Source: Ilex aquifolium (lineage: Eukaryota; Streptophyta; Magnoliopsida; Aquifoliales; Aquifoliaceae). From it: a stretch of 64,000 nt of DNA. The notes beneath the pieces were generated by a model. The model saw only the letters and a program-made list of their open reading frames with translations, did not search any database and was not told the DNA's origin. Both the position numbers and the translations under genes were made by a program. The stretch spans positions 13,711,001 to 13,775,000 of the forward strand of contig OX637394.1 in assembly GCA_951799425.1 (NCBI GenBank), given 5' to 3'. Shown one piece after another: positions 1 to 60,200 of the stretch (position 1 is the first letter of the stretch; the number at the start of each line of letters is the position of its first letter).

Positions 1-4
1 AGCA

Positions 5-2447: not shown

Positions 2448-2478
<31 letters not shown>

Positions 2479-4280: not shown

Positions 4281-4374
4281 CTCTTTCTTTTCTTATATCA
4301 ATGTTACAACAATACAAGTACACCAATCATTTATAGTAATTAGTTATAATTACTGTATAATACACAAAACAGTT

Positions 4375-4712: not shown

Positions 4713-4745
4713 ATATAATCAGCTTCCTTAATTTCTCTCCCCTTC

Positions 4746-16600: not shown

Positions 16601-17366
16601 GAGTAAAACAAATGGGGAATGAGGAATTCATTGGAAGAGTTGGGAGATGATAACAAGAGGAAAACATGAAGGGGGACTGGGTTTTAGGGATTTGAAAAAG
16701 TTTAACATGGCAGTGTTAGCAAAGCAGGATTGGAGGTTATATCAATATCCAGATTCCCTATGGAGTCGAGGTCTGAAGGCAAAATACTTCCTAAATTCTT
16801 CCTTGTGGTGGGCTAATCATAAGGCTAACAGTTCCTGGATTTGGAAGAGCATTCTCACAGATAGAGACTTGTTAGAAAAAGGTATCATTTGGCAAGTAGG
16901 AAGGGGCGATTGCCTTGACTGTTGGGAGGATCATTGGGTTCCTGGTTTTACGAGTGTTATTAACTACACAGGCAGTGATGTAAGGAAGGTTCAAGAGCTT
17001 ATTAATTGTAATACAAGGAGATGGAAGAAGAACGTGATTAGAGAGATCTTTCCAAATGAGATGGTCACAATAATTTTGGTTGTACCATTATCAGCTTCTA
17101 TGCATGAAGATAAGGCTACATGGGAAGCTTCGACTTCTGGTTACTACTCGGTGAATAGTGGATACCACTTGGCAGTGAGGTTAAGCGAGTCTCAGAGGAA
17201 CAAGGGAAAAAGCCTCTTCCTCTTTTTCTCCACCTGCTGGTTTTTGGAAGATGTTATGGGCAATTAAAGCAACCCCTAAGATAAATTCCTTTCTATGGAA
17301 GGTGGTAGTGGGAGCTATTGCAACAAGGCATAATCTGTGGAGAAGGAGAATCTGTCAATTATCAGT
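13680..17366 (+). mobile_element. L1-type LINE truncated at both ends
   Basis: An ORF1-tail-like stretch (about 13690-14098) leads straight into ORF2 at 14099. ORF2 shows the endonuclease motifs (WNCQGLG, LNETK, GDFND, TWDN, SDHSPL), then the reverse transcriptase (APGPDG, YRPIA, KLDMAKAYDRVEWDF, RQGDP, FADDS), then the start of the zf-RVT region (ATPKINSFLWKVV), and stops abruptly near 17366. RNase H, 3' UTR and poly(A) are missing, so the 3' end was lost secondarily. Stops fall near 14336, 14676 and 16438, and frame changes occur near 14330, 15155 (at a G run), 16050 and 17250. No target duplication was found. Confidence 0.88.
15152..16066 (+). pseudogene. LINE reverse transcriptase core, fragment of ORF2
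   Basis: A 304-codon open piece of the second LINE's ORF2 holds the RT palm: GALKAPGPDG, a GEYRPIACSNFIYK block, the first catalytic aspartate in KLDMAKAYDRVEWDF, and RQGDP at its end. The second catalytic block FADDS lies in the next frame at about 16165. The change between frames occurs in a short C/T homopolymer region near 16045. It is a non-functional transposon gene piece. Confidence 0.85.
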
Positions 17367-21910: not shown

Positions 21911-23194
21911 TTTTTTTATAAGTTTGTACTATACTGAATTTATACCATTGCCACCATGTGCTCGACGAAACTTCTTGAAAGAGCTATGGACACATTGCTG
22001 CCAACACTACAGGGTACTCCTCATTAAGGGTAAAACATTTTTCCTTAATATCAAATTAATTTTTATTGTTATCAAATTAATATTAAAATTCATTCAATCA
22101 ATTTTTTGGGGGTACTAAATTATATCAATTTTTTGGGTACTAAATCAAATCTTATTTTATTTTATTAAAATTTTAATTTTTTTGGGTACTCAAGTTGGAG
22201 AAAGACAATTATAAAAATAATAATTTTTTGGGGATAAAATCATCACTTTACGTTAGCAATATTGAAGGAAGGGAGACAAAGGGATCTCTGTGTAATAAAT
22301 TTTAAATTTTGGGGATTTTCGTGTTATTTATAAAATATCAGGGGGTGTCTTCATAATATTGTCAAAACTCAGGGGAAGCCCGTATTTTTTTACCTATTTT
22401 TTAATTAGATATTAATTTATTATTATTTTATCATAAAAAATTGAATTATTATATTTTTAATAAAAGCAGTTATTAATTAGGAAGGTTTTTTGGTAGCGAA
22501 AAAAAAATGTGTGAGAGTATGTTTCTGTGTATATTTATATGTGAAGGATTGAAAATTTGGTAATTAAATTTATAATTTTGTTGTGCCATTTGGGGTTGAA
22601 TGATGATAGTGGTGATAAATTCATGAGTTTTATAAATGAGTAAGATTTGGTTGATTTTATTTATCGCTTAACGATTGTGAATTTAATTGTGTTATGTTAG
22701 TATTTTTTTTTTTTTTTTTGCTTGAGATATATATTACATGGAGATAGGGTGGATTGAAAATATGGTGATTAAGTTTATAATTATATTCTATTATTGGATT
22801 GAGTGGTGGTAAATGTGATAAATTCTTGAGTCTTATAAATGAGAAAAATTTTATTTATTACTTAAAGATTGTAAATTTCAATGGATTATGTTAATATTTG
22901 TTTTTTTTTCGGAGGCATTTGTATATATGGTGTTGTTTTGAAGAGTTGTATATATTTTTACGACAGTTCTATTAATATGGAGGATATGATCGGCGATATA
23001 TTTCGAGTCATTTTAAAAGAAGAATTGGTATGAATATTTTTGGCCCATTCTTTTTGAATTTGGACAATTGTGTAAGAATTTTTTGTTTGTTATATAGTGC
23101 CTTCAGGCACGGGTAATGACTAGTATTATTATAAGCGATCTAATCAATTTATTTAACAAAATAAAAATTAATAATTTTATAATATAATTAGATG

Positions 23195-27582: not shown

Positions 27583-28153
27583 ATGTTTACAGAGGTAGCA
27601 GCAATGGTGGTTGTGGCTGTCTTCATATGGGCTTATCAGACCACAAAGCCTCCTCCTCCAAAGCTATGTGGGTCACCAAATGGTCCCCCAGTTACCTCAC
27701 CCAGAATCAGACTCAGTGATGGAAGATACTTGTCTTACAAAGAGAGAGGTGTTCCAAAGGAAAAAGCCAAGTACAAAGTCATCATCTCTCATGGTTTTAA
27801 CAGCAGCAAGGACCTTTACATTCCTCTTTCTCAAGTATGAACTTCATTCTTAACCCAATGAACTTAATTGGACAGATTAATCAGTATATATATATGGAAC
27901 AAAAGAAAAGTTAATAATTGCTTAATTATGCCATATTCAGGGACAGTTGGAGGATATGGATGCATATGTTCTGACGTATGACAGAACTGGTTATGGAGAA
28001 AGTGATCCAAACCCAAAACGCTCAGTGAAGAGCGATGCGTTTGATATTCAGGAGCTTGCTGATCAGCTTCAGCTAGGGCCCAAGTTTTATGTGGTTGGCC
28101 TCTCCATTGGAACTTGCTCAACTTGGGGTTGCCTCAGATACATACCACACAGG

Positions 28154-28225
<72 letters not shown>

Positions 28226-29665
28226 CCCTAACTATTGAGTTTCTTGAATTATCCTCTCGACTGTTTGAATTGATTTCTCACTGTCCAAAATTAAACGTTA
28301 GTTATGTTTTGGACATAAAAATTCTATCGAAGCAAAATATATGTTTTCAGTATCTAAATTCAGGTAGTGTGAAACTAAGAGTCATAGTTAGATGTGTAAT
28401 GTGAAGAATTTTGATAGGTGATCAAAAACTATTATTGGAGATACAACGTGAAGATATAATAGTTGAGGCGGCAATATGAGATATGAGTACAGTTAAGGGG
28501 TCAAAGTGTAATATATATATATAATATGCTTCGAATCACCCTTTGCAGGCTAGCTGGTGTGGCCCTAGTTTCTCCAGTCATTAATCTCTGGTGGTCTTCT
28601 TTGCCTTCAAAACTCAGTAATGAAGCCTTCAAAAAGCTACTTTTGAGGGATCAATGGGGTTTTCTCATTGCACACCATGCCCCCAAGCTGTTCTGGATGC
28701 TGCAAAACTGGTTGCCATCATCTACTATGATGTCTCTAAAGGAGTTTATGGAAAGAAACCCACAAGTTTATAACAAATCTGATAGAGAAATCTTCATGAA
28801 GATGTCTCAAATTCCTTCTACTGATGCTGTAAGCTTTTCAATGTTACTAAAATGCCTTTGACCTTTTCTTTTTAGCTTCAAATCATTCTCTAGTTCATAT
28901 TATATAAAAGATAGTCCTATGTACGAGGCAAGAGATATATATGTACAAAGCCTTAGCTTGTGTGTAGAGATTTATTTTCGTGACAATCACAATACTACAC
29001 GAGTCTCCCATTATTATAAGGCTTGGGAAGAATCAACATGTAGATAGACACAACCCGTGCATGGAAAAATATTTTTAACTCGAACATCTATTAAAGGGAG
29101 GACATCGTTTATAATTGAACAATCTTACCACTACACCAAATTCCGTCATCTACAATTCATCTAATGTATATTTTTGTAAATTCTTGAGGATTGCTAGCTA
29201 TTGAAAACTAAAAGTCTGATCTAATTTGCTAATCTAGTTCAAATAGCATTACTCTGAATTCTAAGCCAAACAAAATAAAAATATATTGATTTCTAGCAGT
29301 GTTCAAACTTGTTCTTCTCTTACTCATGGATGTGATACTATTTCCTTTCCATGCAGCATAAGGTACAACAGCAAGGTGTCTATGAATCCCTTTATCGAGA
29401 CATATTAGTGTTCTATGGAAAATGGGAGTTCGACCCAACGGAGTTGAAAAATGGATTCTCGGACGGTCAGGGCTTCGTTCATCTCTGGCAAGGAGACGAA
29501 GATGGGATGGCACCGGTTGAACTGCAACGATTCATCTCTCAGAAGCTGCCTTGGATTCGGTATCATGAAGTCCCTGGTGGTGGGCATTTGATCATTCATG
29601 ACAGTGTTTACTGCGAAGCTATCTTCAAGGCATTGTTGGTTGGAGAAGAACAATCCTTCATGTAA
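27583..29665 (+). CDS. alpha/beta-hydrolase paralogue 2 (4 exons, 350 aa)
   Basis: Exons are 27583-27834, 27941-28152, 28549-28828 and 29357-29665. The start is the first ATG in frame, upstream of a hydrophobic segment (about residues 5-20) and KPPPPK, suggesting a signal anchor. Fold residues are present: ISHGF (oxyanion region), the nucleophile elbow GLSIG, WQGDED and the His in GGGHLIIHD. It is a predicted serine hydrolase of unknown substrate. Exon 2 is exactly 212 nt, as in the other two copies, and intron 2 again uses GC-AG ends. Here the GC donor is followed almost at once by about 34 TC repeats, so the donor context is poor. Closest in sequence to paralogue 1. Confidence 0.93.
28155..28223. 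repeat. (TC)n microsatellite, about 34 units, at the start of hydrolase 2 intron 2
   Basis: The repeat begins two bases after the GC donor dinucleotide (28153-28154). It lengthens intron 2 to 396 bp, against 83 and 97 bp in the paralogues. Confidence 0.95.
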
Positions 29666-34811: not shown

Positions 34812-35080
34812 ATGGTTTTCAGGAGAGTTGTTGTTCCGATGAGGGGTTGTCTGCGAATATATCACCAAACACAACCTTCACCTTCAGAGGGCACAGAATC
34901 AACATCAGATGTTCAAGTTCAACCTGTCGTTTCGCCTAGAATCAGACTCAGTGATGGAAGGTACTTGGCTTATGCAGAGAGAGGAGCCCCCAAGAACAAG
35001 TCCAATTACAGAGTCATAATTGTTCATGGCTTTGGCAGCTCCAAAGAGATGAATTTTGTGGCACCCCAAGTACTAGATTC

Positions 35081-35132
<52 letters not shown>

Positions 35133-37375
35133 CATGTCTTATATATTGACCTGAAGTTTTAGACACTGTCAATTTGATCTTGATTATAAAATCTTGGCAC
35201 TTCATTACAAAACTGAAACAGTTTGGTAAAAGAAACTGAAAATCAAAGAATTGGCTGAGAAATCTGACACTAGAACCGTCCGAACAGATAGATTATGCAT
35301 ATGTAGGTGTCTGATGGACCCGAAAATAGCATAATTTCTTGTTAACAGATCAAATTGGGATAAGGTTTTGTTGAGTTGATTTGACTTGAGTGGAGTTGAA
35401 TAGAGCAGATTGGGATGTTGGATCTCGCATTTTATTTTTTACAACTATCAATATCTTGGTGTTTGAGATAGTTATAACCAATGATTAGGATATGTTTCAA
35501 AACGGTCAAAAAATTTATGTTTTCAAGTAGACCGAAATGAATAAATGATTGAATTAAAATTTCAATGATTCGAGGTATTTCACAATGTTTTGAGGTATTT
35601 CGAGATGTTTAGGCATGTTTTCACCTCGTGGAGCAAATTTTTTAAAACTGGCCTAATAGTGCAGAGGTTTCCTTTCTTGTTCCCAAATTAGTTTCTTACT
35701 TTGGAGAAAGCTGTTCTGCTAAAACGGTGTAGAACAGGCACTGTATAAATGTCTCTAGACAGCTACACTTTGTGATTATAAGAAGACAGTAAGATTTACT
35801 TCAGTATCCCTTGGAAGTTTTATTTGTTAATTTCTGATGATATAGCAGAAATTAGGAATCCTTCTCACCTCCAAATCGAAAACAATTTGCTGCACCAGAT
35901 TAACTATACACTCCTAAATGAATCTTACCGTGTCTCGGTTTCCAGGAACTGCTGGATCAGTTGGGGATATATCTTCTGTTATTTGATAGAGCTGGATATG
36001 GCGAAAGTGACCCAAATCCAAAGCGATCGATGAAAAGTGAAGCATCAGACATCGAGGAACTTGCTGATCAGTTACAGTTAGGATCCAAGTTCTATGTGAT
36101 CGGTGTCTCTGTGGGATGTTACCCCTCCTGGAGTTGCCTTAAACGAATACCAGAAAGGCACAAGACACTTCAGACTTTTAACTTGTTAAGCATTTGCAAA
36201 TCCAAAATTGGCCTAATAAATAAAGTTTGTTTTAACTCAAAATTGTAATTGCAGGCTTGCAGGTGTGGCTTTGGTAGTTCCCTTTGTCAATTACAAATGG
36301 CCTTCTCTTCCTCAACACCTAATAAAGGATGACTACAGAAAGAATCTTGCTCGATCAATGCTTTGGTTTGCGCGCCATACCCCGGGATTACTGCGCTGGT
36401 GGTTAACTCAAAAATTGTTCCCCTCGTCTTCTGTCCTTGATAGGAATCCAACATTTTTCAGCAATAGAGACATGGAGGTCTTGCAGAATACACCAGGATA
36501 TCAACTGCTAAGTCGGGTAATTGTCGATTTTTCTCTGCTCATATAATTCAAAATTTTATTTGATTATGGCATAGTTCTACAATTCGGATAAGGATAATTG
36601 GTGGATGTACTGCATTGCTGATATTGATCCCAAAAAAGAAATAGTAGGTACAATTAGGTCATGAACAGCCAACCATCGCCCAGTAAAAATTAGTTAGTTT
36701 CAATCTATGGTCATCGGGGCCTCCTAATTAAAGCTACGAAATTCATGAAGTTATTCTAAAGATTCAAAACGGCCAGTTATTTATAAAATTTATTGTCGGT
36801 TCTCTGTGAACTAGTCGTTAGGCTGAGGGCTCCAGGATTGACTAATAACCAACCCGCATTGAGTAAGGAAGGTATAGTAAGGACATGAATAACCCAGTAT
36901 TGACTACTAGTAATAAAATCAGCAAAAAGCACATTCTCTTCTGTTTCCAGACATTCTGAGCTCCACATATTCAAGTAAGATGAGGAAAAAAAAGGTACCA
37001 TCTCCAAACCCATAACAATTTTGATACCAATTGTGTTTGTAATTACAGAGCAAGCTGAAAAAGCAAGGTGTTTTCGACTCTATTCGTCGGGATTTCATTG
37101 TGGCTTTTGGCAAGTGGGATTTCGACCCACTGGCTCTGAGTAATCCATTTCCTCAAAATGAAAGCCCTGTTCACATCTGGCAAGGTTTTGAAGACAAGGT
37201 TGTGCCTGTTCAGATACAAAGATTTGTCTCAAGAAAGCTGCCATGGATTAACTACCATGAAGTTCCTGGTAGTGGACATTTTCTTGTCTATGACAGTGCT
37301 GTATGTGAAGCCATTTTAAGGTCTCTTTTGCTGGGGGAAGATTCTCCCCTTTACAAACCTCAGTTAGCCAGCTGA
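34812..37375 (+). CDS. alpha/beta-hydrolase paralogue 3 (4 exons, 352 aa)
   Basis: Exons are 34812-35069, 35946-36157, 36255-36516 and 37049-37375. ATG 34812 is the first in-frame ATG. The hydrolase marks are IVHGF, the nucleophile elbow GVSVG, WQGFED and the His in GSGHF, so a serine hydrolase activity is predicted; the substrate is unknown. Exon 2 is again 212 nt and intron 2 (36158-36254) again has GC-AG ends. The N-terminus differs from copies 1 and 2: it lacks the KPPPPK segment and the hydrophobic anchor, and is basic ([19 protein letters not shown]), possibly an organelle-targeting peptide. That makes it the divergent member of the tandem family. Confidence 0.93.
35083..35129. repeat. 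(CT)n microsatellite in hydrolase 3 intron 1
   Basis: About 23 CT units starting 14 bp after the GT donor at 35070. Confidence 0.95.
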
Positions 37376-37897: not shown

Positions 37898-39922
37898 GGT
37901 CCGTTTGGTAGGATGTATAGAAAAATAGAATGATAGAAAGTGAGGGTGATACACTTTCTATCCTTTAATGGAGGAATTTTTTCACCCCTCTTTTATGTTT
38001 GGTAAGAAAGATGGAAAGTATGAATAATTGATTTTTTTGTATTTGGTAAAATGAAAATGTACTTTTTTTTTTGAAAAAAAGTATAAATACATATTGTACC
38101 ATTATATCTATACATAAAATTAATGTATACATAATATATAATTGATAAATATGATATATATGTATAGTCATTACCCGTGCCTGAAGGCACTATACAACAA
38201 ACAAAAAAATCTTAAACAATTGTCCAAATTCAAAAAGAATGGCCTAAAAATATTCATATCAATTCTTTTTTTAAATGATTCGAAATATATCGTTAACCAT
38301 ATCCTCTATATTAATGGAAGTGTCATAAAAATATATGAAAACTCCCAAAAACAACACCATAGATATAAATGTCTCTGGAAAAAAAAAAATACCAACATAA
38401 CCCATTGAAATTTACAATCTTTAAGCAATAAATAAAATCTTACTTATTTATAAGACTCACAAATTTATCACTTCTACTACCACTCAATCTAATAACACAA
38501 CATAACTATAAACTCAACTTCCATATTTTCAATCCACTATATCCTCATGTAATAAATACCTCAAGTAAAAAAAAAATTCTAATAGAATACAATTAAATTC
38601 ACAATCTTTAAACGATAAATAAAATTAATCAAATCTTACTTATTTATAAAACTCATGAATTTATCACCACTATCACTATTCAACCCCAAATGACACAATA
38701 TAATTATAAATTTAATCACAAAATGTTCAATCCTCCACATATAAATATACACAGAAACATACTCACATACATTTCTTTTTTGATTACCAACAAACTCTCC
38801 TAACCAATAATTGATTTGATTAGAAATACAACAATTCAAGTTTTAAGATAAAATAATAACAAATTAATGTTTAATTAAAAAATAGGGTAAAAATCGCGGA
38901 CATTCCCTGAGTTTTGACAATATTATACGGACACCTCCTGACATTTTATAAATAACACAGAAATTCCTTGAGGCTTGAAATTTATTAACCCCTTCTGTCT
39001 TCTTTCCGCCAATGTTGCTAACAAAAATTGATATTTTTATCCCAAAACTTTATTATTTTTACAATTTCCTTTTTCCAAATTTAGTAACAAAAAAATTAAA
39101 AATTTAATAAAATCAAATAAAAAATTGATCTAATTTAGTACTCTAAAAAATTAATTAAATGAATTTAAATATTAATTTGATAATAATAAATATTAATTTA
39201 ATATTATTTCGACAAAGTTGAATATAAATTGGACAAAATTAAATGTCAATTTTTGATAAAATTATATATTAATTTAAAATCTAAGGTTCATTTCGTGTTG
39301 AATATTATTTGGTGTTTATAGCTAATGTGCTATTTTTTATTTTTTTTCGGAAGGTACAATATTTTTTATTTACATTAAGTGTTATTTACAAATTAAGAAG
39401 CAAGTGACAAAATACATGTCGTCAAATATATAAAATTTTGAATTAGTTTCATGGAATAAATAATTGTATAACATGTAGTTTCATCTATGTTATGAAGTAA
39501 ATAATAACAAAAATAACACAAGGGAAACGAAAAAAAAAAGATAATAGTATGAGATGGAGAAAGGGAGAGTATAAGATAAATAGATCGAGAGAGTTATATG
39601 AGAGATGGGGTCTTAGAGTTGTAAAAAGAATGAAAGTCTAATTAGAACCATCGGATCAAAACGATCTGAACTGCGAAAAACTCAAGATAAACAATCTAGT
39701 TATTTTATTATATAGATATATCAAAAGATATATGGACAAATAACATATATTTTACCACAAATAATTAAATTTTCATTCATTTTTTCTCTCAATTTTAGAA
39801 GGACTGATTTTAGTAAGTTAGAAGGAAAGTTCATGAATTCTTTTTTTTTTTATCCTTTTTATTTTTTTCTTTATCAAACATGATTTTTTTATTCTTTCAT
39901 TTTTTCATTGTACCAAACGAAA
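37898..39922. mobile_element. TIR DNA transposon remnant hosting Helitron B
   Basis: GTCCGTTTGGTAGGATG at the left and the inverted TTTCGTTTGGTACAATG at the right make a 17-bp terminal repeat with four mismatches. Without the nested Helitron the element is about 470 bp. No target duplication was identified, so the superfamily stays open (hAT or PIF-like). The flanks 37376-37897 and 39923-40090 hold the hydrolase 3' UTR and no gene. Confidence 0.5.
38164..39716 (-). mobile_element. non-autonomous Helitron B, 1.55 kb
   Basis: On the minus strand it starts TCTATATAATAAAATAAC and ends with the hairpin GTGCCTTCAGGCAC, GGGTAATGA and CTAT (a decayed CTAG). It is colinear with Helitron A at both ends but lacks about 1.6 kb of A's middle. 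No coding capacity. It sits inside the TIR element at 37898. Confidence 0.85.
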
Positions 39923-40094
39923 CAAAAGGCTAAAGTTTTTCAAAAGTTTGTTCGCTAGAAGAGAAAAAGCGTCTCACGACATTTTATTTCTTCCAAAAGG
40001 CTTTTACAATATAGTACAAATAAGAAACCCTAAAAGTCCGAAATTACCAAAAACCCAAGCCTAGAATGCGAAATTAACTAAAATGTTGAAAAAA

Positions 40095-40922
40095 TATAAA
40101 TGTGCATAAAAAGCAATTTCTTTTTACCTAAAATGAATTATAAATATAACCGTGCATAAAAAGGCATCAAGATACTTGTTCTTCGGAAAATTCTAAAATG
40201 GGATCTCGACAAATATTGTAACGCGTGTAGTTAGAATTTGTTTCGTTCAGCACCGTAACTATTCCCAGATTTGATTTCCGATGATCATGGATTGTCATAT
40301 AGTCTCTAGTTGCGCGTGTTGCATCACTGTTATAGAATTTGTCTCGTTCAACACCGTAACTATTCTCAGAATTGATTTCCGATGATCATGGATTGTCGTA
40401 TAGTTGTCGTTGAGTGTGCTGCATCACTGTTATAGAATTTGTCTCTTTCAGCACTGTAACTATTATCAATTTTGATTTCCGATGATCATGGATTGTCGTA
40501 TAGCATTTTCGTGTTGCATCATTGTATTTCAACTATCAATACCCCAAAATTCAACAAAGAAATAACAAAAATTAAAGTAATTGACATCTATACATTATTA
40601 CTATAAAAAGAAATGTAGGCACACATCTCATGCAATATATTATATTTCTTCACGTGTTTTATAGATTAATAGTTCTAAATTATTCCAATCAAAAGTTATA
40701 ATTGAGAAAAAATTGTCTAATACGATATTAAAAAAAAATTATTTTTCGATACCATAATATTATCCCAAACCCAATAAATTACATGCATGCAAGTACCCTG
40801 AGGACAAACTTGTCAATGGAGAATATCTTTGGCATCAAATTTAAAGGCCATGCAGGAGGATACAATGGACTGCTAGGCCACCAGGAAAATACAAAGTAGG
40901 GATTGGGATGTACTTACTGGCA
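40095..40922 (+). repeat. duplicated block, upstream copy (bZIP promoter side)
   Basis: This is colinear at high identity with 43255-43886 in intron 1 of the bZIP gene, in the same orientation. Shared landmarks are GTGCATAAAA.GGCATCAAGATA, ATTTCCGATGATCATG, ACATGCATGCAAGTAC and GACTGCTAGGCCACCAG. The 196-bp length difference is explained by an internal 100-bp unit present three times here and once in the intron copy. No inverted ends were seen. Confidence 0.88.
40233..40527 (+). repeat. three tandem 100-bp units
   Basis: Units start at 40233, 40334 and 40434 with AGAATTTGT(T/C)TC. Each contains GATTTCCGATGATCATGGA and a TTGCATCA.TGT end. The block in the bZIP intron has a single equivalent unit near 43393-43492. 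Confidence 0.88.
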
Positions 40923-40932
40923 GAAAACTTGT

Positions 40933-41013
40933 GGCACGTGTCACTAACGTGTCAAAGAACTGCATGAAATCTTGGGGCCCACCCTAACCAACCACAAATC
41001 TTACACTATATAG
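40933..41013 (+). promoter_or_regulatory. ABRE pair and TATA box upstream of the group A bZIP
   Basis: GGCACGTGTC (40933-40942) and TAACGTGTC (40945-40953) are ACGTG-containing ABA-response elements, and CTATATAG (41006-41013) is a TATA candidate. Transcription would start near 41038. A strong GTAAGT donor at 41092 with acceptors at 41225 or 42126 suggests a 5' UTR intron before the ATG at 42222. ABREs in front of a group A bZIP fit the known ABA feedback control of this family. Confidence 0.6.
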
Positions 41014-42221
41014 CCGCTACACTGTGACAATTCCTAACCTCAACCACCACCACCACCCCCGTTCCTCTTTCGTGTAGTTGGTGAGGTTGAGGTAAGTGCT
41101 TGGTTTTTTCTGGTTTTTTACATGCAAATTGTTCATTATGTTGCTTTCTTTTTCTAGTTTCCTTCCCTTTTTGGGTAGTCATCTTCAAAGCCTTCTTTAA
41201 TGATTAATGATTGTGATTGTTGCAGATGACTATTACCGGGTTTCTATTCTTATGACATCGTTTCTGTTTAATTATCAAAAGTAAGTAATCTTACACCTAT
41301 GTGGAAAGAGACTATTTACGTGGCTCAGAGCGTGTGACGCGTTGACTCAAATAGAGCAATTTCGCCCTCATATATTCTTATATATGTTCGTATACGACAA
41401 GTGTATTATTTATGTGCGCGCACGCACTTTTTGACTAATGTTTCAATAATTTGTCAAACATGTTTTCAGCAGAATAAACTGAAGGACTGATGATCAGTTT
41501 ATGCATGCTTAATTCAGTCAGGGCAAGTCCAAAATTAGTGCACTCAGACATCATGAGCACCTGGAGAGGGATTGCAAGTAAAGGGGGATTGCAACAAAGT
41601 AAACCTTGGCTTTTTCTTCTTTTTGGTGGAAACTTTTTCCACTAGAAAGTAAATAAGTTCTATTGATTGGGATAAAGCCATGATTTACAAGTAAGGGAGG
41701 ATTCCCTATTACAAATAAAAAAGTAATTACCTTTTGTAATATTGCAAGCAAATAAAAAGACGCTAACTCTAAAAATGCAGAATTCTGAAAGAACTATAAA
41801 TTTTAAGTCAATATTTCAAACTAAATTTCGTATCAGTAGAGTTAACAGAACATTAATTGATATCATCGTAAGCCGGAATTCGTTATTGGCATGATCCAAG
41901 GTGGTTTCTTTTTCTATATATATAAATATATACTTTGGTAACCAAACATGCAAAAAATGTGACATCGTCCTCACCTTCTTCTAGCTTATCACCGACGGGG
42001 TCATCCTTGAGTCGACACAATTAATGAACAGCATATCCTTTAATTACCTCTTCTGTGCATACAAATTTCATGTAACTATTTCTTTTGGATCTATTGGTGA
42101 CTAATTTCCTTCCTTGGTTCCTACAGGTTCATCATTGCTTTCAAATGATCAAAGCACACAAGACTAGTTTTTGAATCATATCTTTAAGCAAATAATAATA
42201 AGTTCTACACTTACGCTCAAA

Positions 42222-44416
42222 ATGGATGTTTCTGAATCTGAAAGTTTCTCTTGTGACACCATCAAACCAGAGGAACAAGGAGAACCAAAAGAAAACCACT
42301 CACTTTCTTCACCAAACAAACAAGACTCCATCTTTTCACTCTCTATAGATGAATTCCAAGACAAAGATGGGAAGAGTTTTGAGTCCATGAACATGGAGGA
42401 ACTACTCAACGGTGCCTCCCCGAGTGAAGCTTCTTTAAATCCCAATGAAATTGAACCATCAAACAACGAAAATGAACCTCTAAACGCCTCCTTTTCGATT
42501 CCTACCTCAATGTACTCGAAAACTGTGGAAGAAGTTTGGGCTGGTATTGCTGTGAATCAATCACAGCAATACAATTTTGGTACCATTGACAATCATGGTC
42601 CAATTTTGCACAGTCAAACTGCTGGAGAAATGACTCTAGAAGATTTCTTAGTAAAGGCCGGTGTCATTCGAGAATCTGCAGACTTTTCTTATCAACAAAG
42701 GGTATTGGAGATTTTCCAAAACCATTGTCAGAATTTAGTGAGCAACAATGCATTTTTGGACCCGAACGCTGTACCAGGACAGGTGATGGGGTATGAATTC
42801 CCAGGCCAAACAAATTTTATTCCAAATAATTTCGTTAACAATGGTCCTTTAATGTACCAAACTGGCATTCCCAGTGTTGGTATTGTCGGTGATCCAACTA
42901 ACATTAATATTGGAGGAGGAAAATCCATTTGTTTGTCCGATAAGAGTGAACCGAGTGGTAGAGGGAGGCCGAGAAGCTCTTCAATGGAGGTCGTGGTGGA
43001 GAGGAAACAGCGTAGGATGATCAAGAATCGCGAGTCAGCTGCGCGATCTCGAGCTAGAAAGCAGGTTTGCATCTTTCCTATATCATCATCATTTTATATA
43101 GATGTCATACTTTATATCACCTTCTATTGTCGTCCTGTATGTAAATGGATAATTTGTACGATAGTATTATAATATCGATACATCTATATATATGGAAAAA
43201 TAATAATGATAATAACAGATGTATGGATAATTTTTTTTTACCTACAAAGAATTACAAATATAAATGTGCATAAAAAAAAAATCTTTTTTTTACCTAAAAT
43301 GAATTACAAATATAAACGTGCATAAAAGGCATCAAGATATTTGTTCGGATCATTCTAAAATGGGATCTCGACAAATTTTCTAACGCATGTAGTTAGAATA
43401 TTTGTCTCATTCAGAACCGTAACTGTTCTCAGTTTTGATTTCCGATGATCATGAATTGTCGTATAGTTTATCGTTGCACATGTTGCATCATTGTATCTCA
43501 ACTGTCAATATCCCTAAATTCAACAAATAAAATAAAAAAAATTAAAATAATTGACATCTAATACATTATTACTATAAAAAGAAATGTAGGCAGACATCTC
43601 ATGCAATTATATTTCTTCATGGATTTTTGAGATTAACAGTCCTAACTTATTCATATAAAAAGTTATAGTTGAGAAAAAACTGTCTGATATGGTATTAAAA
43701 AAATATTTTTCGATACCATAGTATTATCCCGAACCCTATAACTTACATGCATGCAAGTACACTGGGACAAACTTGTCAATGGAGAATATCTTTGGCATCA
43801 AATGTAAAGGGCATGGAGGAGGATACAATGGACTGCTAGGCCACCAGAAAAATACAAAGTAAGGATTTGGACATACTTGTTGGCATAGTGGTGGTTTTCC
43901 ATGCTTTACTTTTGTATCTTCATTCTAATTTAAAAAAAAAAATAATCATTTGGACTATAGGAAAAAAATATGAGAAACATCAAGAAATAGTTTGTTATGT
44001 ACAGTAAAATCAAATTTGTTCTTCCACAGGCATATACAGCAGAACTCGAAATAGAGCTAAACCGACTGAAGGAAGAGAATGAAAGCCTGAAGCATATATT
44101 GGTAAAGAAAGATCTCTCTTTAAAAATAATTCGAACTTGTTTTACAAGTTTTTTTCTTGTTTGTAATATATAATAACCCAATATTTCCTTGTTCTAATCT
44201 CAATTTAATAGGCAGAAGCAGAAGAAAAACGAAAGCAAAGGGTAATTTCTGGCTTAGCCTTGAAAGAATAACTAGTTATATATGTAATTTTTTGACAAAG
44301 TGTAATGATTTATTTTGCATTTACAACAGGTTATGGAGCAGACAAACACAACAAAGGCAGAAAGGAGAGCTGAGAAGCTTAAATCAATAAGGAGGGCCTC
44401 AAGTTTGTCATGGTGA
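42222..44416 (+). CDS. group A bZIP transcription factor, ABI5/AREB/DPBF type (4 exons, 343 aa)
   Basis: Exons are 42222-43064, 44030-44101, 44212-44241 and 44330-44416. Conserved group A segments appear in order: SIFSLSIDEFQ with SMNMEELL (about residues 35-65), SKTVEEVW (about 105-115), MTLEDFLVKAGVIRE (about 140-155), then the basic region KNRESAARSRARKQAY, a leucine zipper (ELNRLKEENESLKHIL) and the C-terminal RRASSLSW. The Ser/Thr-containing C1-C4 motifs are known kinase targets in ABA signalling, and the protein is expected to bind ABREs in the nucleus as a dimer. The first intron splits the basic region just after ARKQ, the usual position in the family, and contains a duplicate of promoter-side DNA. 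The start at 42222 is the first ATG in the open frame. Exact orthologue not assigned. Confidence 0.93.
43255..43886 (+). repeat. duplicated block, copy inside bZIP intron 1
   Basis: Direct-orientation copy of 40095-40922, ending about 140 bp before the 3' splice site at 44030. It stops short of the ABRE and TATA motifs that follow the upstream copy. Confidence 0.88.
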
Positions 44417-45361: not shown

Positions 45362-46239
45362 ATTAACCAAAGACACCTCTTTAGAAGGGTCATGTCTTTT
45401 AATGAAAATGTACATATTCGGAAGGTTGTGACTTTTGAGAAAAGATACTAAGAAGTCTATAAATAGAACTCTAGACTTCATTCACATTGACACTAGAGTC
45501 TTGTATAACTCATCTTTCTTTCCCTCTCACTCTCTCTCAAAATAAAAACTGTTCAAAAAGATTTTTTTATAAGTTCTTCAATATTGTTAATTACAGTTCT
45601 TCACCCAAAGGTTTTGTTGTATCCTAAAAGTAATTTGTCAAGAACCCTCTAGCAAACTCTTCGAGTGTGGGTAAATATCACTTTAAAGAAAGCGATCTTA
45701 CGTGCCTCAAATATTTGATTCTGATCTATTTTATATCTACTCGAAGTAATATCCCAACAATTTTAAAGTGATATTCGCAATAGCTACCGAATCAAGTGCT
45801 CCGTTCATAAGTCATAAATCAAGACTTTGTGAAATTGGATCATTTTGATGGAACGAATTTCACTCGTTGGAAGGATAAGATGATGTTTCTTCTCACTGCG
45901 TTGAAGGTTGCTTATGTATTGAATCCAAAGCTGCAACCTATTCCCAAAGAAAAAGTAGAAGACACTGATCAGGTAAAGGAAGAGCGAAAGAAGCGAAAGG
46001 AAGATGAATTTGTCTGTCGAGATCATATTTTGAACACACTATCCGATCAATTGTATGATCTCTATGTATCGTTGAAGTCTCCACAGGAAATCTAGAATGC
46101 ACTGGAATAAAAATATATGTCTAAGAAGTAAGTTATGGACAAATTTCTAATTATAAAATATTTTGAGTTTAAGATGACTGATAACATACCTATCATGGAT
46201 TAAGTGCATGAATTGCAAGTTCTAATAGACTCCGTGATG

Positions 46240-47095
46240 CAAATCATAGCACAACTTCAAGGGATCTAGTTCAAGTTCCAATTGGGCCAGTTACGAGAGC
46301 ACGAGCAAGGAAGTTTAAAGAGATACTTAACGGGCTGATTCAAGAGGCATGGACTCACGCAAATTCGTGGAGGCCCATTGAACATGATCCACTTGGGCAA
46401 CAAAGAGTCATCAACATGATTCAAGTTCTAGAAGAATCTAGCTAAGGCTAAGCATAAATGGGCATGTTTTAAATTACTCTTTTTGGGTCTGATTGTAAGG
46501 CTTGCATGCCAATTATTTTTAGGAAAGTAAGGCTTTCCTTGTCTATTTAGGAGTGTGATCAACCTAGTAAAGGGCTGATTGTCTTTCTTTTCTTCTTTTA
46601 GGCAAGTAAGAGTTTTAGTCTTTAGTTATTCCTATTTGGGTTTGGATTGTCAAAATATAAACTCAGATTAGGATTTGTTTCCTTACTAGATTAGGATTTG
46701 TTTCTTTAGTAAATTAGGATTTGTTTTCCTTAGTAGATTAGGAATTTTCTTTGTAATGACCAGCCTATAAATAGATGTCTAACTCAATGAAAAGGTAGAT
46801 TATTATTCAGTAAATTTGGAGAGTGTTTTCTCTACGGTTCTTTGAAGAACTATACGAACTTATCGGGATTTCCCGTGGCGTTCACCAGCGACTTATCAAA
46901 CGGAATTCCACCACCGTTTGTGGCGTCTTCCTTATACCAAGGTTCTTGTTTCGCATCAAACAACGGGTTGAGGTCATATATACCAAGGTTCTTGTTTGTC
47001 GTAAACAACGGGTCAAGGTCTATCATTCAAATCTGATCATAGAACGATCTTGGGTTCCTTTTTCGTTGTTGGATCTCGTTAATTTGGCGGATTCA
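46240..47095 (+). mobile_element. Ty3/gypsy fossil fragment nested in copia gag
   Basis: It contains the characteristic gypsy pol tail VPIGPVTRARARKFKEIL followed by LTR-like sequence with a TATAAATAG box (about 46767), three to four tandem 25-bp TTAGGATTTGTTTCC units (46665-46745) and a duplicated CCAAGGTTCTTGTTT segment (about 46937 and 46982). Copia gag-like sequence resumes at about 47096. Broken, old. Borders are approximate. Confidence 0.7.
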
Positions 47096-48910
47096 CATCA
47101 CTCTGTGAAGTTAAAGTTACAGTTATTGAGTCAATTCAAGTGGGGGCATTTGTTGTCAAACTTCCTCCTACTTGGAATGGTTATAGGAATAACTTTTGCA
47201 CATGACAGAAGATTTCAATGTAGAACAAATACAAAAACATTTGAGGATTAAAGAAGCAAACATGATGTTGTGTATTTGAGTTCTAAAGTGAATAATGTGT
47301 CTGAAAATGAGTCTAACAAAAATCAAAAATTTCAGAAACATCTCAAAGTGCAGAAGGGTTCTGGTTTTAAGAAGAATAATAATTCCAACAAGAAGAATGT
47401 CTAATGTTTTCATTGTGGAAAGAAAGGTCATTATATTCGTAAATGCAGATACCGTCAGAATGATAAGAATGACAGTTCAAATTCTAAAAACACGGCAAAC
47501 ATGGTGGAAGAGGAGATCAAAGATATCGTTGCTATGGTCTCAAATGTGAAAATTGGTATGATTACTGAAGTACACATGGGAACATCTAATAAATCCGTTG
47601 ATTCGTGGTTTGACTCTTGGGTTACAATTCATATTTGCAATGACAAAGACCAATTCCAGACTTATGAAAGTGTTGTAGATCAACAAGTGCTTATGAGAAA
47701 TTACAACCCTGTAAAAGTGTTTGGAAAAGGGAATGTTGAACTTCAATTCACTTCTAGGAAAAAACTAACTTTGGTCAATATTCTGCATGTTCCAGAAATT
47801 ATGAAAAATCTTGTATCTGCTAGTCGGTTATGTAAGAAAGACTTTAAGGTCGTTCTAGAGTCTGATAAGTTGATTCTTTCTAAGAGTAGGATCTTTGTTG
47901 GAAAGGGTTATTCAAGTGATGGGATGTTTAAACTCAGTTGATAATATTAATAAAAAGTCTACACATTCTACTTATATTGTTGATTCTTCTTCTATATGGC
48001 ATGCTAGATTAGCACATTTAAATTACAAGTCTTTAAAATTATATTTGTAAGCATGGATATATTTCATATAAGCATAAAGAAAATAATAAGTGTGAAATAT
48101 GCATTCAAGCCAAAATTACAAAGAATTATTTTCCTAAGGTAGAAAGAAATAGACAAATATTAGAATTAGTACATTCTGATATTTATGAATTAAAAGTAGT
48201 TCTAACAAGAGGTGGTAAATAGTACTTTATAACATTTATAGATGACTGTTCAAGATATACATATATGTACTCAATGCGATCTAAAGATGAAGCATTTAGT
48301 TTCTTTAAATGTTATAAAGTGAAAGTAGAAAATCAAAAGGAAAAGAAAATAAAGATTCTCCACAATTATAGGAGTGGAGAATAGTTTCCCAATGAATTTT
48401 TTGCATATTGTGAAGTGCATGGTATTATACACCAAACATCAGTATCGTATACACCTTAACAGAATGGTTTGGTTAAAAGAAAAAAAAGACATTTGTTGAC
48501 ATAATTAATGCAATGATTTTATTTGCAAAATTGCCTTTAAATTTATGGGGTGAAGCATTACTTTCTACATGTCATGTACACAATAGAATTCCATCTAGGA
48601 AAATGCATGTTTCACCTTATGAGTTATGGAATGAGACTTCATTTATTATTTGATTTAATAATTGATTTATTTTGAATAGTTATAACTATTAAGAAAGGTT
48701 ATTATTTGAATCGTTATGACTATTAGGAAAAGACACTATTGAAGAGATATGACCATTGGGAAAAAAAATCTCTTTAAAAGAGTCACGCTTTTTAAGAAAG
48801 GACACATTTTTAAAAGGGTCACGACTATTAACCAAAAGATACCTCTTTATAGAAGAGTCGTGTCTTTTAATGAAAAGTCACATATTCATAAGGTTGTGAC
48901 TTTTGAGAAA

Positions 48911-49081
48911 GGGAAATGATGTTTGAACCTTATTTGGGGACCTTATTTACTGACATAATGATGTGGCTTCAATGCAACAATTAGATTAATTGTGAGTTAC
49001 AATGTTAGATAGAACCCAAAACTAATTCAATAATTAGGTCCCTAAAGAAAGTCCTCAAATAAGGTCCCTGTAGCATTGCTC
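48911..49081. mobile_element. 171-bp Mutator-type MITE in the copia right LTR
   Basis: Inverted ends share ACCTTATTTG(G/A)GGAC. A 9-bp target duplication TTTGAGAAA lies at 48902-48910 and 49082-49090, and the left LTR has this word once at the corresponding place (about 45434), giving a clean empty site. Confidence 0.85.
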
Positions 49082-49242
49082 TTTGAGAAAAAACACTAAG
49101 AAGTCTATAAATAAGGCCCTATACATCATTCACATTGACACTAGAGTCTTGTATTAACTCATCTCTTTTTCCCCCTTACTCTTTGTCATCTCAATAAAAA
49201 CTGTTTAAGAAATTTTTTTTGGAAATTCTTCAATATTGCTAA

Positions 49243-49374
49243 CTGGGGATAATCCGTGTCTGAAGATACGGTGCAATACGAATAGTTTTGACAGAAATGT
49301 TGGTAGCCGTTGAATAAGTCTATTTGAGACCGTCGGATGAATTTATTGAAATCTGTCATGTTTTATATTATAGA
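49243..49374 (-). mobile_element. miniature Helitron, 132 bp (minus strand), in the copia right LTR
   Basis: On the minus strand it starts TCTATAATATAAAAC and ends with an imperfect CCGT/ACGG hairpin and CCCCAG, inserted between A and T with no duplication. The left LTR shows the uninterrupted AA/TT target near 45592. It is a close relative of the element at 18968-19130. Confidence 0.83.
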
Positions 49375-49443
49375 TTGCAGTTCTTCAGTCAAAGATTTTG
49401 TTGTATCCTAAAAATAATTTGCCAAGAACCCTCTAGCAAACTC

Positions 49444-50454
49444 ATGGTTTTGAAAAGCGGTCGTTACACTGCGTAACGCCCGTTACGTAACGGTAACGGA
49501 GGTCAGCGATACAGTTACACCCCGTTATAGCGGTCAGAATAAAATTCACTCCTGTAACGACCGTAACGGCCTATAACGGTTCATAACGGCCTCCGTAACG
49601 GCCTCCGTAACGGCCGATACAGGTCATTTTCAACCCGAAAAAACAAATACCCAGAAGAAAAAAAAATTCTCCAATATTCTGTAAAAATATACAACAAAAT
49701 CTTGAAATAAAATACAAAGAACCCATCTAGAAGCAAATTTTGAGACATAGAAGAAAGAATCTGCTTGTAGAGTGAAAGATCTGAAACATGACCGCCACAC
49801 CCATTTACGGTAGAGATTCGTCTGCACAGAAATCATCCAATGAAAAAGAAATGATTTGAAAGAGATAGATCTGACAAAATCATCCAATAATCAAAAACCC
49901 AATAGAAAGACACAAAAAACGTTAGATAATACGACCCCATAGACAAAAGAGACCCAACAGAAAAAGTAAATTTGGAAGAGAGTGAAAAATGTCCTTTTGT
50001 AGTGGGTAGAGCAATCTGCCATGTGTTAAGAGGAGAGGACATGTGTTGTCCTACAAAAGTTGTTACTTTTTTTTTTTTTTTTGAACAAGTTTAAAAGTTG
50101 TTTCCTCATTTTGTCATTTTACAATAAAAGCATTATCCACAAATTAATTTTTATTTAATTTTCTCCTCGAATTTAATTGTGTTTATTTGTTACCTTAAGT
50201 TAACAATATCTTATTTTCGTGGAATTGAATTAAATATTATGTTCATAATACAATAACATAGCATCATGACTCACTAAAAATATTTATTTGTCTGATATGA
50301 AACTTAAAATGTGTATATATTTAATTTTGAAGGTGTGAGCCCGAAAAAAAAATTCACGTCTCCGATTTTCGTTATTGTTATGTAACATCCGTTTCACCCC
50401 GCGTCTGTTACACCGTTACCGTTACGACAGCCGTTACCGTTATTCAGAACCATG
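49444..50454. mobile_element. 1.0-kb Mutator-type element with GTAACGG-rich ends
   Basis: Termini ATGGTTTTGAAAAGCGG and the inverted CATGGTTCTGAATAACGG are flanked by a perfect 9-bp target duplication AGCAAACTC (49435-49443 and 50455-50463); the left LTR has this word once (about 45651). Both ends are built of many GTAACGG / CCGTTAC units (49460-49620 and 50380-50440). The interior 49625-50340 has short open frames on the minus strand but no recognised protein. Confidence 0.87.
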
Positions 50455-50562
50455 AGCAAACTCTTCGAATGGGGGCAAATCTCACTTTAAAGAAGCAATC
50501 TTACGTCCCTCAAAGCCTTAATTATGATCTATTTTATATCTACTCGAAGTAATTTCCCAACA

Positions 50563-53500
50563 TTATAAACATTATATTATTGTTGTCCATATGTATTTGA
50601 TCCATGTGTATGTCAATACCCAGCAACTCACTCTCTCTCTCTCTCTACACCCTCAACTCTCCAGAGGCTGTCTCAAAAAATATACAAACCACCATCCGGC
50701 ACCGGGCAAACAAGCATCGCCATAGGTAACTCAATCTTCTTATATATATATATATTTTTTTTGGGTTCTTAGATTATTTGCACTCATGAGGGTGTATGTC
50801 TCCTCACTGTCAACGTTAAAGATGCGGTGGGTGGTGGTGCCATACCCAAAAAAATCTGTATAGGTTGATGAAGTAAAAACTAAAATTCGGACACATGATA
50901 TTCAAGAAAAGAAAAAAAAAGATCTATTGTCTCTTGGAAATACGTTTCTTTTCTTTGATGTTTTATTTTTGTTCCTTGAATATCATTGGCGAAGTTCAGA
51001 GCCTCAACCCCCTTCTCCTCCTCTCTCTTCACGAGCGAACCAAACCACCAGCCACCAACCGTTAACCACATCCACAATCTGTTTGATGAAATTTGGCATT
51101 GTTCTAAGTCATTTTAGCTCTTTTAAAGGCCTCCAAAGTTATGTTATTTGGCTTTTTTGAATTGGGTTTGAGCTATTCATCTATTTCTTATATGTATTTG
51201 ACGGATTGATACAGGGAGTGGAAGACTATTGGGTAAATTTATAAGTACTGTATATATATATATATATGCCGAAATCCACATAATCTAATAATACGTAGAG
51301 AATGGTGCCCATTCTCAACAATCATTACATGGTGTGTGATCAAAAAGAATTTTTACTTTTTTTTATTGTTATGGGGTTTGGTTAGTTCACTTTATAGATT
51401 ATAATTGTGTGGCCATTCGTTAATTTTAGGTAGATTATAATAATGGAAGACACTGATTTATTTTTTTATCATGAGTTTTATTTTTATAGAATTTTGTTGT
51501 CCTGCATTGTAAATTGTGATGCCAGTTTGCATTTTGATTAATACGATGATATAATGGGAGTGGATAAGAGGTATTCAACTTGGAGAAGGTAAGATCATAT
51601 GTCATAGCTGCTAGCAATTTTTTGTAGTGCACTGTACAATACAAGATACTTCAAACAGTAATTGCCGAGTGACACAAAAGGATCAAAGTGGGGAGGAAGA
51701 AACATGGCAGCATTTCCAAGTTTATCCACCCTCCAAACATATGCCTTCAACCTAGAAACTTGGTAATTGGTCGTGTTTGTAAATGATTGTGTCTAAGTAG
51801 GACTCTGATATGATAGTGAGTTTAGCGTGTAGGATATGATTATAGAATGTATAAATGTTTACAAAGGTTAACATTTTTGTTGGGTCTTGTTTTAGAGGAA
51901 ACTTTCATTTTTTTTATAAAAAAAATAGTAGGTCTAAATTAATTTTAAAAATAGTTTAAAAATGAAAGAAAAATACGTTGCAATTACAAAATATTTCTGT
52001 TACATAACCAATACTCAATAGTGTATTCAGGCATTGGTTATTACTACTGTATATATGTGAGAGATAGAGAGAGAATTTTAATTATGAAATTTCTAAAATG
52101 AAGGAGATTTGATTTGATTTAAATTTTGAATTGTGCATTTTATATGGTTCTTATTAAATTTTCTATTTGTATTTAAATAAGGGTAAATGAATTTTTTGAT
52201 ATGAATTTGTCTTTAATAACCCAAAAGGTGGGCTTTCGAACTCATTGACAAAAAAGATAGGTACAAAGGACCAATCTCCGAAAAAACCCAAGTTTAATTA
52301 TGTTACACTTAAGGCCCATTAAATGGATGGTTTGTTTAAGGCCCATCAGGTCCAGCTTTGGACTGTCCTTTATTCTGCCGGATCCACCCGGTTCATTGAC
52401 CAATCAACAGTGGGCTGAATTGATCGGTGGGCTGAATCAACATTTAACATTTCGCTAGTGGGCCACTTCCTTCGCTAGCTAGGGAAAGAAAAAGACTGAC
52501 CATAGTCAGTGTAGCAGTCTCATCCATAATCTCTGTCGATATCGAGGCATCCCCGTCATGCACATTTGGCAAATATCAAGGGGATCTCGTCTTTGCATAG
52601 TTCAAATCGAAGAAAAATGCCATCGAATGTTCAACAAACAGTCTTACGGTGGTATAATTACAACGGTACATCTCTTGTGAAATTTGGGCCCTCGAGCTGC
52701 TCACCCATAAAGCTCTCCCTTCTTGTTGACTAACTTGATGTAGGACTGATGTCCTATCCCATGATTAAACACTGCACTTGTATTGTGGTCCTCCCTTACT
52801 CGAATCCCTCTCTCTTGTATTGATACTGTCCTCCTCCATGGGTATTTCTTATATGAAAGGTCGGAATTAAAGCCTTTGCAATCATGCCAGTCAATGCCCA
52901 ACAAAGCTCTTGTGAAAAATTTTATTGTTTACTTACTGTCTAAATTATTAGTTGACGTCCTTTCTGAAAGCAACCAGATTTAGTACATATCATGATCAAT
53001 AAGTTGACAATGTGATGGTTAACTGAACTAATCAATGCTCATCAAGTTCTGCATCTAGCTAGGTGCTCTATAACCAGATCAGAACCCTCTTCCAGTCCAG
53101 AATAATATCATCTTGGACTGAAAAGTATTGTCCATAATCCGATCAGAGCAACGCTACTTGAAGACTTGATCTATTGTCTTAGTAATATCTGAAGCAAAAC
53201 ACCAAGATTATATACCACAAGCTACAACCAGAAGTCAAAAAGAAGAAAACCCTCTATTTTGCTGCCATTATTAGGAAGCCCCTTCAGAAAGACCCACCCA
53301 CATCACAACATACTTGCTGGGGTAGTAAACTAATTACTATGAACAACCTAAACTCTTTTGAAGTTTAAACATGAGACAAATGTACTTCCAAAAGTGCACT
53401 AGCAAACTGTAAAAAGTCAGACTTTAGAATATATCCAAATAGGATAATGAGGCGGACTTATCTGCTCTAACTCGAACATTGAAATAATGGGAGAAAGAAA

Positions 53501-57232: not shown

Positions 57233-60200
57233 TTAGAAGTTCGGGAAATGGTTCTGCAAAGATTGCATCATTTGCAAATCCGTCGTTGTTTGACAAGAGT
57301 TTTCATCGGCAATCAAAGTGCTGATAGATATTCAAGTTAGACATTAGTTAGGAAAAAATAAGTTATAAGCATACGCCATGAGATGACAGTCAAAAACTCT
57401 AGAACTACACATCCATAGTAAACTTTCACATTGTTTTGAAAGAGTACTGAATGTTTTTAAGTAATTAAAGAATTACATTACTGGCAGGCTATATAAGACT
57501 TTTATTATTCTTATATAGTTATCTGTTTCAATTAATCATTAATTCTTATCATCATCTTCATCATTATTAATTGTTGCTGGTATTATTATTAGTCATCAAA
57601 TCATAGCTGTTACTTGCTCAATAAAGAGGAACAAAAGGAAAAAAAAACTACATTTTCGCTTCTATATACACCCACATTATTGTAAAGACGGACATATTTA
57701 GCAATGGAGTCCAAAAGAGGGTAACAATCCTATCCCAAATTTTTATTTTCAAAAAGAAATTCCTATTTCCTAGTCTCTCAAGGGTGAAAATAGAAAACCT
57801 TAATCTGGCTTAGCAAAAGAAGATACTTTTAGGCCTTTTCCTCATCGATGTCTCTACTAAACACACCCAAAAATCTTAAAGAGCACACATAGGGAATAGG
57901 AATACTTGGGTCAGATCTTACTCTCGCGGTCCAGACGCCCAGAGGGAACTTAGGGCTCTTAATCGTCCATAATACTCTCCAATCACCAAAAAACATCTTG
58001 CAGCTTGCCGAACTGTCAGTATCCGGCGCAGTTGATGAAGGGTTTGTTGCCTTAAATTATCAGCCTGCAGTTCAAAATAACAAATCATGGAGTATGACCT
58101 CACAAATAAATAAAATATAAACAATTTGTCAAAAGGGTTGAAACCCATGAAGTTGTCTTATCTATGAGATTTGGACTATTTCAATTATAGGTTAAAAAAT
58201 AGATCTTTTTAACATTTTTTCAACTAACTTGTTCATATAATCTTGTCCCAAAATATTTAATCTTTTGTTGATAGGTCTAGCAAGGGCTTTTATTTCAATA
58301 GAAGCCATTGTCAAACCACCTTCAGATAGAAACGTGTTAGATGGAACACTACATCAAACACTAGCATTCAACATGGTAAAATGACTTCTTCAACACAAAG
58401 CAATCTATATTTCACTACAAAATCATTTGCAGCGCAATGAAATTACAATCCAATCAAGTATGCGATTGATAACTGCTATTTCAGTGTTATATGCTTACCA
58501 CCTAACCTAATTAATGGAATTATATGAAAATCATAATCCCCGGTCATGTGGACTCCATCTATATATTAGTCTTGTACATACTAGTTCTAAATGGGAGACT
58601 AAATAAAAGAGCTTTGATTGGTTTAATTTCTTTTCTTCATTATGGGTGATTCAGTCACCTACATAGACTGATAAATGTCGCCTCAGTTTTCTATATGACC
58701 AACTCTCAAACAGTCTTTACACTTCTTAAAGTCATTTGATAAAACATTGACAATATTGTTACTTCAGAAAGTAGTAGTCTCTTACTCTTGTGGTAGGTAA
58801 GGAAGTATTCACAATGACTACATTTGCCTTTTCCTCTTAGTATGGCACCGCTGAGATATCATTTTCATCACATCTTAGGCAGTTTTGGAAGGAAAGGAGA
58901 GCAGACTGGACTATTCCGCAATTATTTTATATTTTTACTGCATCCCTTTCATGGTAAATATTATAGGTACCAACAAATCAAAAGACAATTCCTTGCTACA
59001 ATGCATGTTAAACAACAAAATATAAGAGTAAAAAGTTGTCCGGATAAGACAGTTATGCACTAATGCAATGGATTTACCTGACGAACAAAACCTTCAAGAT
59101 TGGTTAGCTTGCCAAGAGCAACAACCATATGATGCATACCATCATTGATAGACCCACTAGCAATTGTGTCGATAAGGGACTGTTGAAGCTGTTCTAATCC
59201 TTGGGTAAGGGCTTCCTCTGCTTGTTGTGAGGATTGCTGGAGGTTGTAAATCCCCACGATTTGCTGCTCGGTTAATGGGTCTAATTGTGGTATTAACATC
59301 TGAAAAAAGCATCAAGCCAAAAATAAGTTAGAGAAAAGACATCAATAACTGAATCAATGAGATGGCCGGGTTAAATAATGAAAAAGTGGTACAATGAAAG
59401 ATCAAATGCAGATACAAATGTTGTTCTATTCATAACTGCGATCTACATTAATATATTCTAGAAAACAAGTAGTAGCTTAATTTCAACCTTAATTAGCTCA
59501 GATGGCCGAAAACCACCCATCCAGAGGAAGCATCGTTCAGCTGGAGTAGTCCACATTCCAGTAATAAGGTGGAAAACATCAGATTTGGCAGCCAATACCT
59601 TCAGGCTGAAAATTTCATCATAATGGGCAATATAACCATCTACAGTCACCCTGAGATCTCCATCAGATAAATGTGCTTGCAACCCCGTTCGAAGCTCTGA
59701 CATGAGCCTTTGGTCATCATCTAACCATCTTGAATATTCCATGTCAAATATTGCAGCACCTGAAATATTAGCCAGTAAGTCTTTTATACTTACTGCAATT
59801 TAGGTATAAGAGTGATCTCCACGGTTAAAGAAGTTTTATAGTCAACAGTTTAGGTAGGTGCTAAAGTATAAAATTTTATAGCCTTAGGAGTATGTCGTTT
59901 GGACACGCCCAAAAGTAACATCCATACTAGGAGAATTAGTGAACAATTTTTGGTTAGATGAAATTTTACGGCGTGGAATCTTGGCAAAAACATGGACCAG
60001 TACTAATTACCAAACGACTTGGACAACGTTTTTTTTTTTATCTTTTTGAAAGTATTAGCAAACTTTTGTCGCATTAATATATGATGCTTTTGACCTTAAC
60101 TCTTATGAAAATGGAAAAAACAAATACTACAACACAACTTCTACTCAAGACTTTACTTGTCATCAAGCCAGTTCAGAAACTTAGAGCTTCAAATATTTGA

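Follow-up and report, generated by a model that had tools for sequence, protein, structure and literature searches.

Results

The bZIP gene and its hinge intron

The window, that is, the whole 64-kb stretch of DNA analysed here, carries a plant bZIP gene at 42222-44416. Its four coding exons are bounded by GT...AG, and the frame is open over 343 residues. The spliced protein matches the Pfam families bZIP_1 (PF00170, 5e-12) and PF07716 (1.3e-9), and the N-x7-R signature and the leucine heptads are present by eye. A PDB sequence search with the protein gave 0 matches at 0.001. By sequence likeness, we take the gene to belong to group A rather than group G, presumably to the ABI5/ABF/EEL type. 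A second copy of about 650 to 850 bases from upstream of the gene sits in its coding intron 1. The gene parts and the two copies, named block A and block B, are as follows.

40073..40922, plus strand: block A, the upstream copy, about 850 bp by alignment, ending 12 bp before the first G-box/ABRE
40232..40503, plus strand: tandem array in block A, unit of 100 bp in 2.7 copies, by repeat detection
41007..41013, plus strand: likely TATA box of the bZIP gene, judged from its position
41092..42126, plus strand: probable intron of the 5' untranslated region, GAG/GTAAGT ... CTACAG/G, placed by eye
42222..43064, plus strand: coding exon 1 of the exon model, 281 codons, holding the DNA-contact residues
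43065..44029, plus strand: coding intron 1 of the exon model, 965 bp long, with block B taking up 649 bp
43237..43885, plus strand: block B, the intronic copy, 649 bp by alignment, with a single 100-bp unit
44030-44101, 44212-44241 and 44330-44416, plus strand: coding exons 2 to 4 of the exon model, encoding the zipper and the C terminus

The first-pass annotation had placed block B in a first coding intron that splits the basic region. Block B does lie in coding intron 1. The intron itself, however, falls between ...RARKQ and AYTAELE in the hinge, outside the DNA-contact part of the basic region, and separates the Gln and Ala codons. In a study of Arachis, all group A and group G bZIP genes are described as having an intron between Gln and Ala of the hinge, termed pattern a (PMC6335788). 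The position of intron 1 is the same, and the intron is therefore very probably ancestral. The hinge intron is common to the group A genes and to the present gene; here it is filled to 649 of its 965 bp by block B. Without block B it would measure 316 bp. If block B is the newer copy, intron 1 would have been enlarged from about 316 to 965 bp.

Two diverged copies of one block

That a promoter-side block is duplicated into intron 1 in direct orientation is confirmed by BLAST of 39001-41300 against 42901-44300, with coordinates essentially as first annotated. The longest alignment joins 40429-40922 with 43392-43885 (434/503 identities, 86%), a second joins 40074-40330 with 43238-43494 (220/261), and a third piece (82/99) arises from the tandem unit. 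The best score between the blocks is 503 bits, against a maximum of 35.4 bits in 100 dinucleotide shuffles of block B.

The first-pass annotation had proposed aligning both blocks for divergence, and the alignment shows them to be about 11% diverged, with differences spread like neutral drift. In the version starting at 40094/43256, 558 of 622 gap-free columns are identical; the 64 differences comprise 37 transitions and 27 transversions, giving a K2P distance of 0.11. The longer version, from 40073/43237, has 570 identities in 643 gap-free bases and 73 differences. No heterogeneity of divergence is visible along the blocks (longest identical run 44, p 0.28; variance p 0.12), in a test that is weak with only 73 differences. 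Nor do the last 125 bases contrast in divergence with the remainder (p 0.35). The distance of about 0.11 and the drift-like spread of the differences indicate that the duplication event is old. Plant sequences accumulate about 0.65 to 1.3 substitutions at each site in a hundred million years. At these rates, the divergence corresponds very roughly to 4 to 9 million years.

When the window is compared with itself, the pair ranks second in strength among the repeats. No third copy was found in the 64 kb by BLAST, by a core-motif scan or by the self-comparison; the next-best match of either block, with the pair excluded, reaches 36.8 bits and lies in A/T-rich DNA. Exact-match scans of viral and prokaryote contigs for block pieces gave 0 matches, a result uninformative about plants. 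An assembly error as the cause of the pair is ruled out by the 64 differences among the 622 aligned bases.

The first-pass annotation had given the block about 630-830 bp. This size gap is due to the tandem unit of about 100 bp, present in 2.7 copies in block A (three in round figures) and in one copy in block B. The unit core TTTGATTTCCGATGATCATGGATTGTCGTATAG occurs four times in the window at no more than 3 mismatches, three times in A and once in B, with 0 expected. The units of A differ from one another at 5, 8 and 9 of 72 bases, and from the unit of B at 7, 8 and 8. Since the differences within A are similar to those between A and B, the unit number changed at about the time when the block was duplicated.

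Block edges and the question of a transposable element

The absence of transposon ends, as first annotated, held as far as could be found: terminal inverted repeats are at chance level, and there is no convincing target-site duplication. Both facts bear on the reading that the two copies are separate insertions of one short, non-coding, worn transposable-element family favouring sites near genes, for instance a non-autonomous DNA element or a solo terminal repeat. We regard this as a serious possibility, with a chance a little short of even.

The edges speak partly for such a family. Both ends are common to A and B, and the right edge is sharp, with both copies stopping together at ...GGCA. 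The left edge is ragged, at about 40073-40095 in A, and T-rich in B. The internal 100-bp units vary in number between the copies, and short elements often have internal tandem units. The pentamer GAAAA lies directly after the right edge of A, at 40923, and again at 40088. However, the copy at 40088 lies about 15 bp within the left homology. The sole 5-bp match at B, TTTAC at 43237 and 43905, likewise falls about 20 bp past the right edge. Both pairs thus look like chance matches in A/T-rich DNA; A has two further 5-bp flank matches, and no target-site duplication beyond 5-bp matches was found at either copy.

The lack of inverted terminal repeats beyond chance also argues against an insertion family: shuffles did equally well or better in 186 of 300 trials for A and in 234 of 300 for B, with the 25 longest listed of 51 and of 69 inverted pairs in the blocks. 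The copies end in CA as a solo LTR does, but no TG start (judged by eye) with a 4-6 bp duplication stands beside either of them. No TC start, CTRR end with hairpin or A/T insertion site of a Helitron was seen on inspection of the edges by eye. As for a SINE, the window contains no tRNA and no Rfam family at gathering score, and the copies show no duplication, although a worn head would escape such a search. No stop-to-stop ORF of at least 85 aa lies within A or B. The lack of a further copy within 64 kb speaks against a transposon family; the LINE and Copia remains and the unclassified dispersed repeat in the window speak for one.

Two further signs of a mobile element were considered. Block A has a CpG observed/expected ratio of 0.97, or 0.85 when its two extra units are left out, and block B one of 0.68, compared with 0.25 and 0.34 in two LINE stretches, 0.72 in the Copia stretch, and 0.69 and 0.95 in the two copies of the dispersed repeat. 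The ratio does not discriminate, and methylation history was dropped as a transposon sign. CpG changes show no significant asymmetry between the copies: B has TG or CA at six CpGs of A, and A has CA at two CpGs of B (p 0.29), a further CpG of B that is AG in A being excluded from the test. Block B contains a hairpin at 43370-43406 (14 of 15 positions paired, 7-nt loop), which is weaker in A by eye. In single-strand DNA folding, B beats 20 of 20 shuffles (z -2.9), while A is matched by 8 of 20 (z 0.16). With only B folding better than its shuffles, a folded single-strand element common to both copies is ruled out.

Other content of the window

The strongest repeat of the window is dispersed, unclassified and about 1 kb long. 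Its copies at 38165-39206 and 22046-23122 are in opposite orientations and 82.7% identical, with a G+C of about 0.25; one copy ends about 870 bp upstream of block A. LINE-type remains at 14066-17267 and 5682-6929 contain reverse transcriptase (4.8e-19), zinc-binding and RNase-H-like domains, and are strongly depleted in CpG (the ratios 0.25 and 0.34 above, the second measured over 4000-6929). Directly 3' of the bZIP gene lies a Copia-type relic at 45362-50569 with broken repeat pieces at 45362-45767 and 48827-50569; it matches Pol_BBD and, below cut-off, gag. The stretches 1-3338, 27600-29665 and 34932-37375 are related to one another and share one orientation. They probably make up a local family of tandem genes; five of their ORFs match alpha/beta-hydrolases weakly, none of them reaching the Pfam cut-offs. 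A minus-strand ORF at 59458-59799, about 15 kb from the bZIP gene, encodes a DOG1 domain (7.8e-31). Together with the plant-type bZIP gene and its ABRE-type sites, this ORF and the LINE and Copia remains mark the window as plant DNA.

Cis elements and internal starts

The sequence motifs in and beside the blocks, and the possible coding starts within intron 1, are listed below. RY and G-box/ABRE are the names we assume for CATGCATG and for CACGTGTC and ACGTGTC, respectively.

40601..40609, plus strand: TATA-like CTATAAAAA in block A, consensus match only
40782..40789, plus strand: RY-type palindrome CATGCATG in block A, motif match
40935..40953, plus strand: CACGTGTC and ACGTGTC of G-box/ABRE type, outside the block, motif match
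43746..43753, plus strand: RY-type palindrome CATGCATG in block B, motif match
43747..43803, plus strand: cryptic first-exon candidate in block B from a sequence scan, ATG and GT donor, 19 residues, joining exon 2 in frame
43997..44029, plus strand: open in-frame stretch from an ATG before exon 2 (MYSKIKFVLPQ) by frame reading, a zipper-only route without splicing

One could suppose that the pair is a retained regulatory duplication, with block B serving as an enhancer or as a promoter inside the gene. Taken furthest, this reading would have a zipper-only peptide bind and block full-length bZIP proteins. We consider the regulatory reading improbable.

The first-pass annotation had suggested that the block could bring cis elements into the gene body. 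CATGCATG and CTATAAAAA are indeed retained in both copies, which agree at 46 of 47 bases around the TATA-like site. Against a regulatory role, B has neither the G-box nor either of the two CGCGTG sites of A, and the ABREs at 40935-40953 lie outside the duplicated block and were not copied. The divergence shows no sign of constraint, the shared CATGCATG lying in a block without visible heterogeneity, and the plus strand of the window has 83 occurrences of TATAAA. The idea of working cis elements carried into the gene stays hypothetical.

The suggestion of an internal start yielding a zipper-only protein fared no better, even though routes to such a protein exist. From the ATG at 43997, the frame, which is open back from exon 2, gives 73 residues including the zipper. 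Three ATG-to-donor candidates in intron 1 could join exon 2 in frame, one of them (43747-43803) inside block B. By a crude donor score, each of the three reaches 4 of 7, as does the donor of the gene itself, and the cryptic first exons can therefore not be dismissed by donor strength. However, shuffled introns yield an open in-frame ATG in 18% of 5000 trials, and at least three cryptic first-exon candidates in 21.8% of 1000 trials. In a transcript with an assumed start at 43603, moreover, ten ATGs precede 43997. The right part of the block is well kept, and a conserved small peptide of 27 codons, starting at the ATG at 43779, was considered there. Inspection of both copies by eye led to its rejection: most changes between them alter the amino acid, and there is a one-base gap just upstream.

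That block B might be a second, seed-type promoter, with a transcript starting inside it and translation from 43997 or the cryptic exon at 43747 giving a zipper peptide that lacks the basic region and dampens the full-length factor of the same gene, is a far-fetched proposal.

Discussion

The block pair is a real, old local duplication or a pair of worn insertions, and no function has been demonstrated for it. We favour an old local duplication, plausibly a templated break-repair insertion with block B passively carried, and give this reading about an even chance. A segment of about 650 bp beside the bZIP promoter would have been duplicated into the conserved hinge intron, which lies about 3 kb further downstream; the reverse direction, from the intron to the promoter side, is less likely. 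Templated insertion during double-strand break repair is a plausible route. Block A may then have gained 100-bp units, or block B lost them, while the two blocks drifted. Block B is presumably removed by normal splicing, which would leave the protein intact, and any regulatory effect would be incidental.

In favour of a local duplication, only two copies exist in 64 kb and they are 3 kb apart; a random pair would lie that close in about 9% of cases, with orientation uncounted. The nearby donor expected of a templated insertion is at hand in the match between A and B. On the other side, no empty site was seen, the window is rich in mobile-element remains, and matched ends and internal tandem units are also expected of a short non-coding element.

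The closest known events are break-repair insertions in rice, described in a review (PMC7407515); the underlying study is probably that of Vaughn and Bennetzen in 2014, to judge from the reference list of the review. According to the review, that work suggested faulty repair of breaks as the likely source of 10-1000 bp insertions, among them short duplications taken from ectopic donors. The present block resembles them in its size below 1000 bp, its nearby donor and its lack of transposon ends, although 649 bp falls in the upper part of the quoted range. It differs in that the non-tandem donors, according to the review, lie within 200 bp of the break, whereas the donor here is about 3 kb away; this greater distance speaks against a local duplication. 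Another article describes how repair junctions can carry templated insertions, and how filler DNA occurs at the T-DNA junctions of plants (PMC8871565).

A promoter-region segment of a transcription-factor gene is also present in extra copies in teinturier grapes, where VvmybA1 is reported to carry a 408-bp promoter repeat (PMC7464560). The grape copies all belong to the promoter, vary from clone to clone and are correlated with expression; here, an intron holds one of the copies and the pair is about 11% diverged. No published report of the present arrangement appeared among the titles and abstract beginnings listed in literature searches, which is no proof of absence.

The first-pass annotation had also raised unequal recombination that removes exon 1. 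The geometry of the direct repeat would allow a loss of about 3 kb with the promoter and exon 1, but no trace in the window shows that such a loss has occurred.

As it stands, the locus is one more case in which a copied block has lengthened an intron. Events of this kind are ordinary in plant genomes, and this one lies at an eye-catching spot. The block pair is useful mainly as a marker: promoter and exon 1 could be lost in one step, so that presence/absence alleles are conceivable. If block B turned out to be active, the locus would offer a clean natural example of how a promoter-side block came to lie in the intron between the DNA-binding half of a bZIP protein and its zipper.
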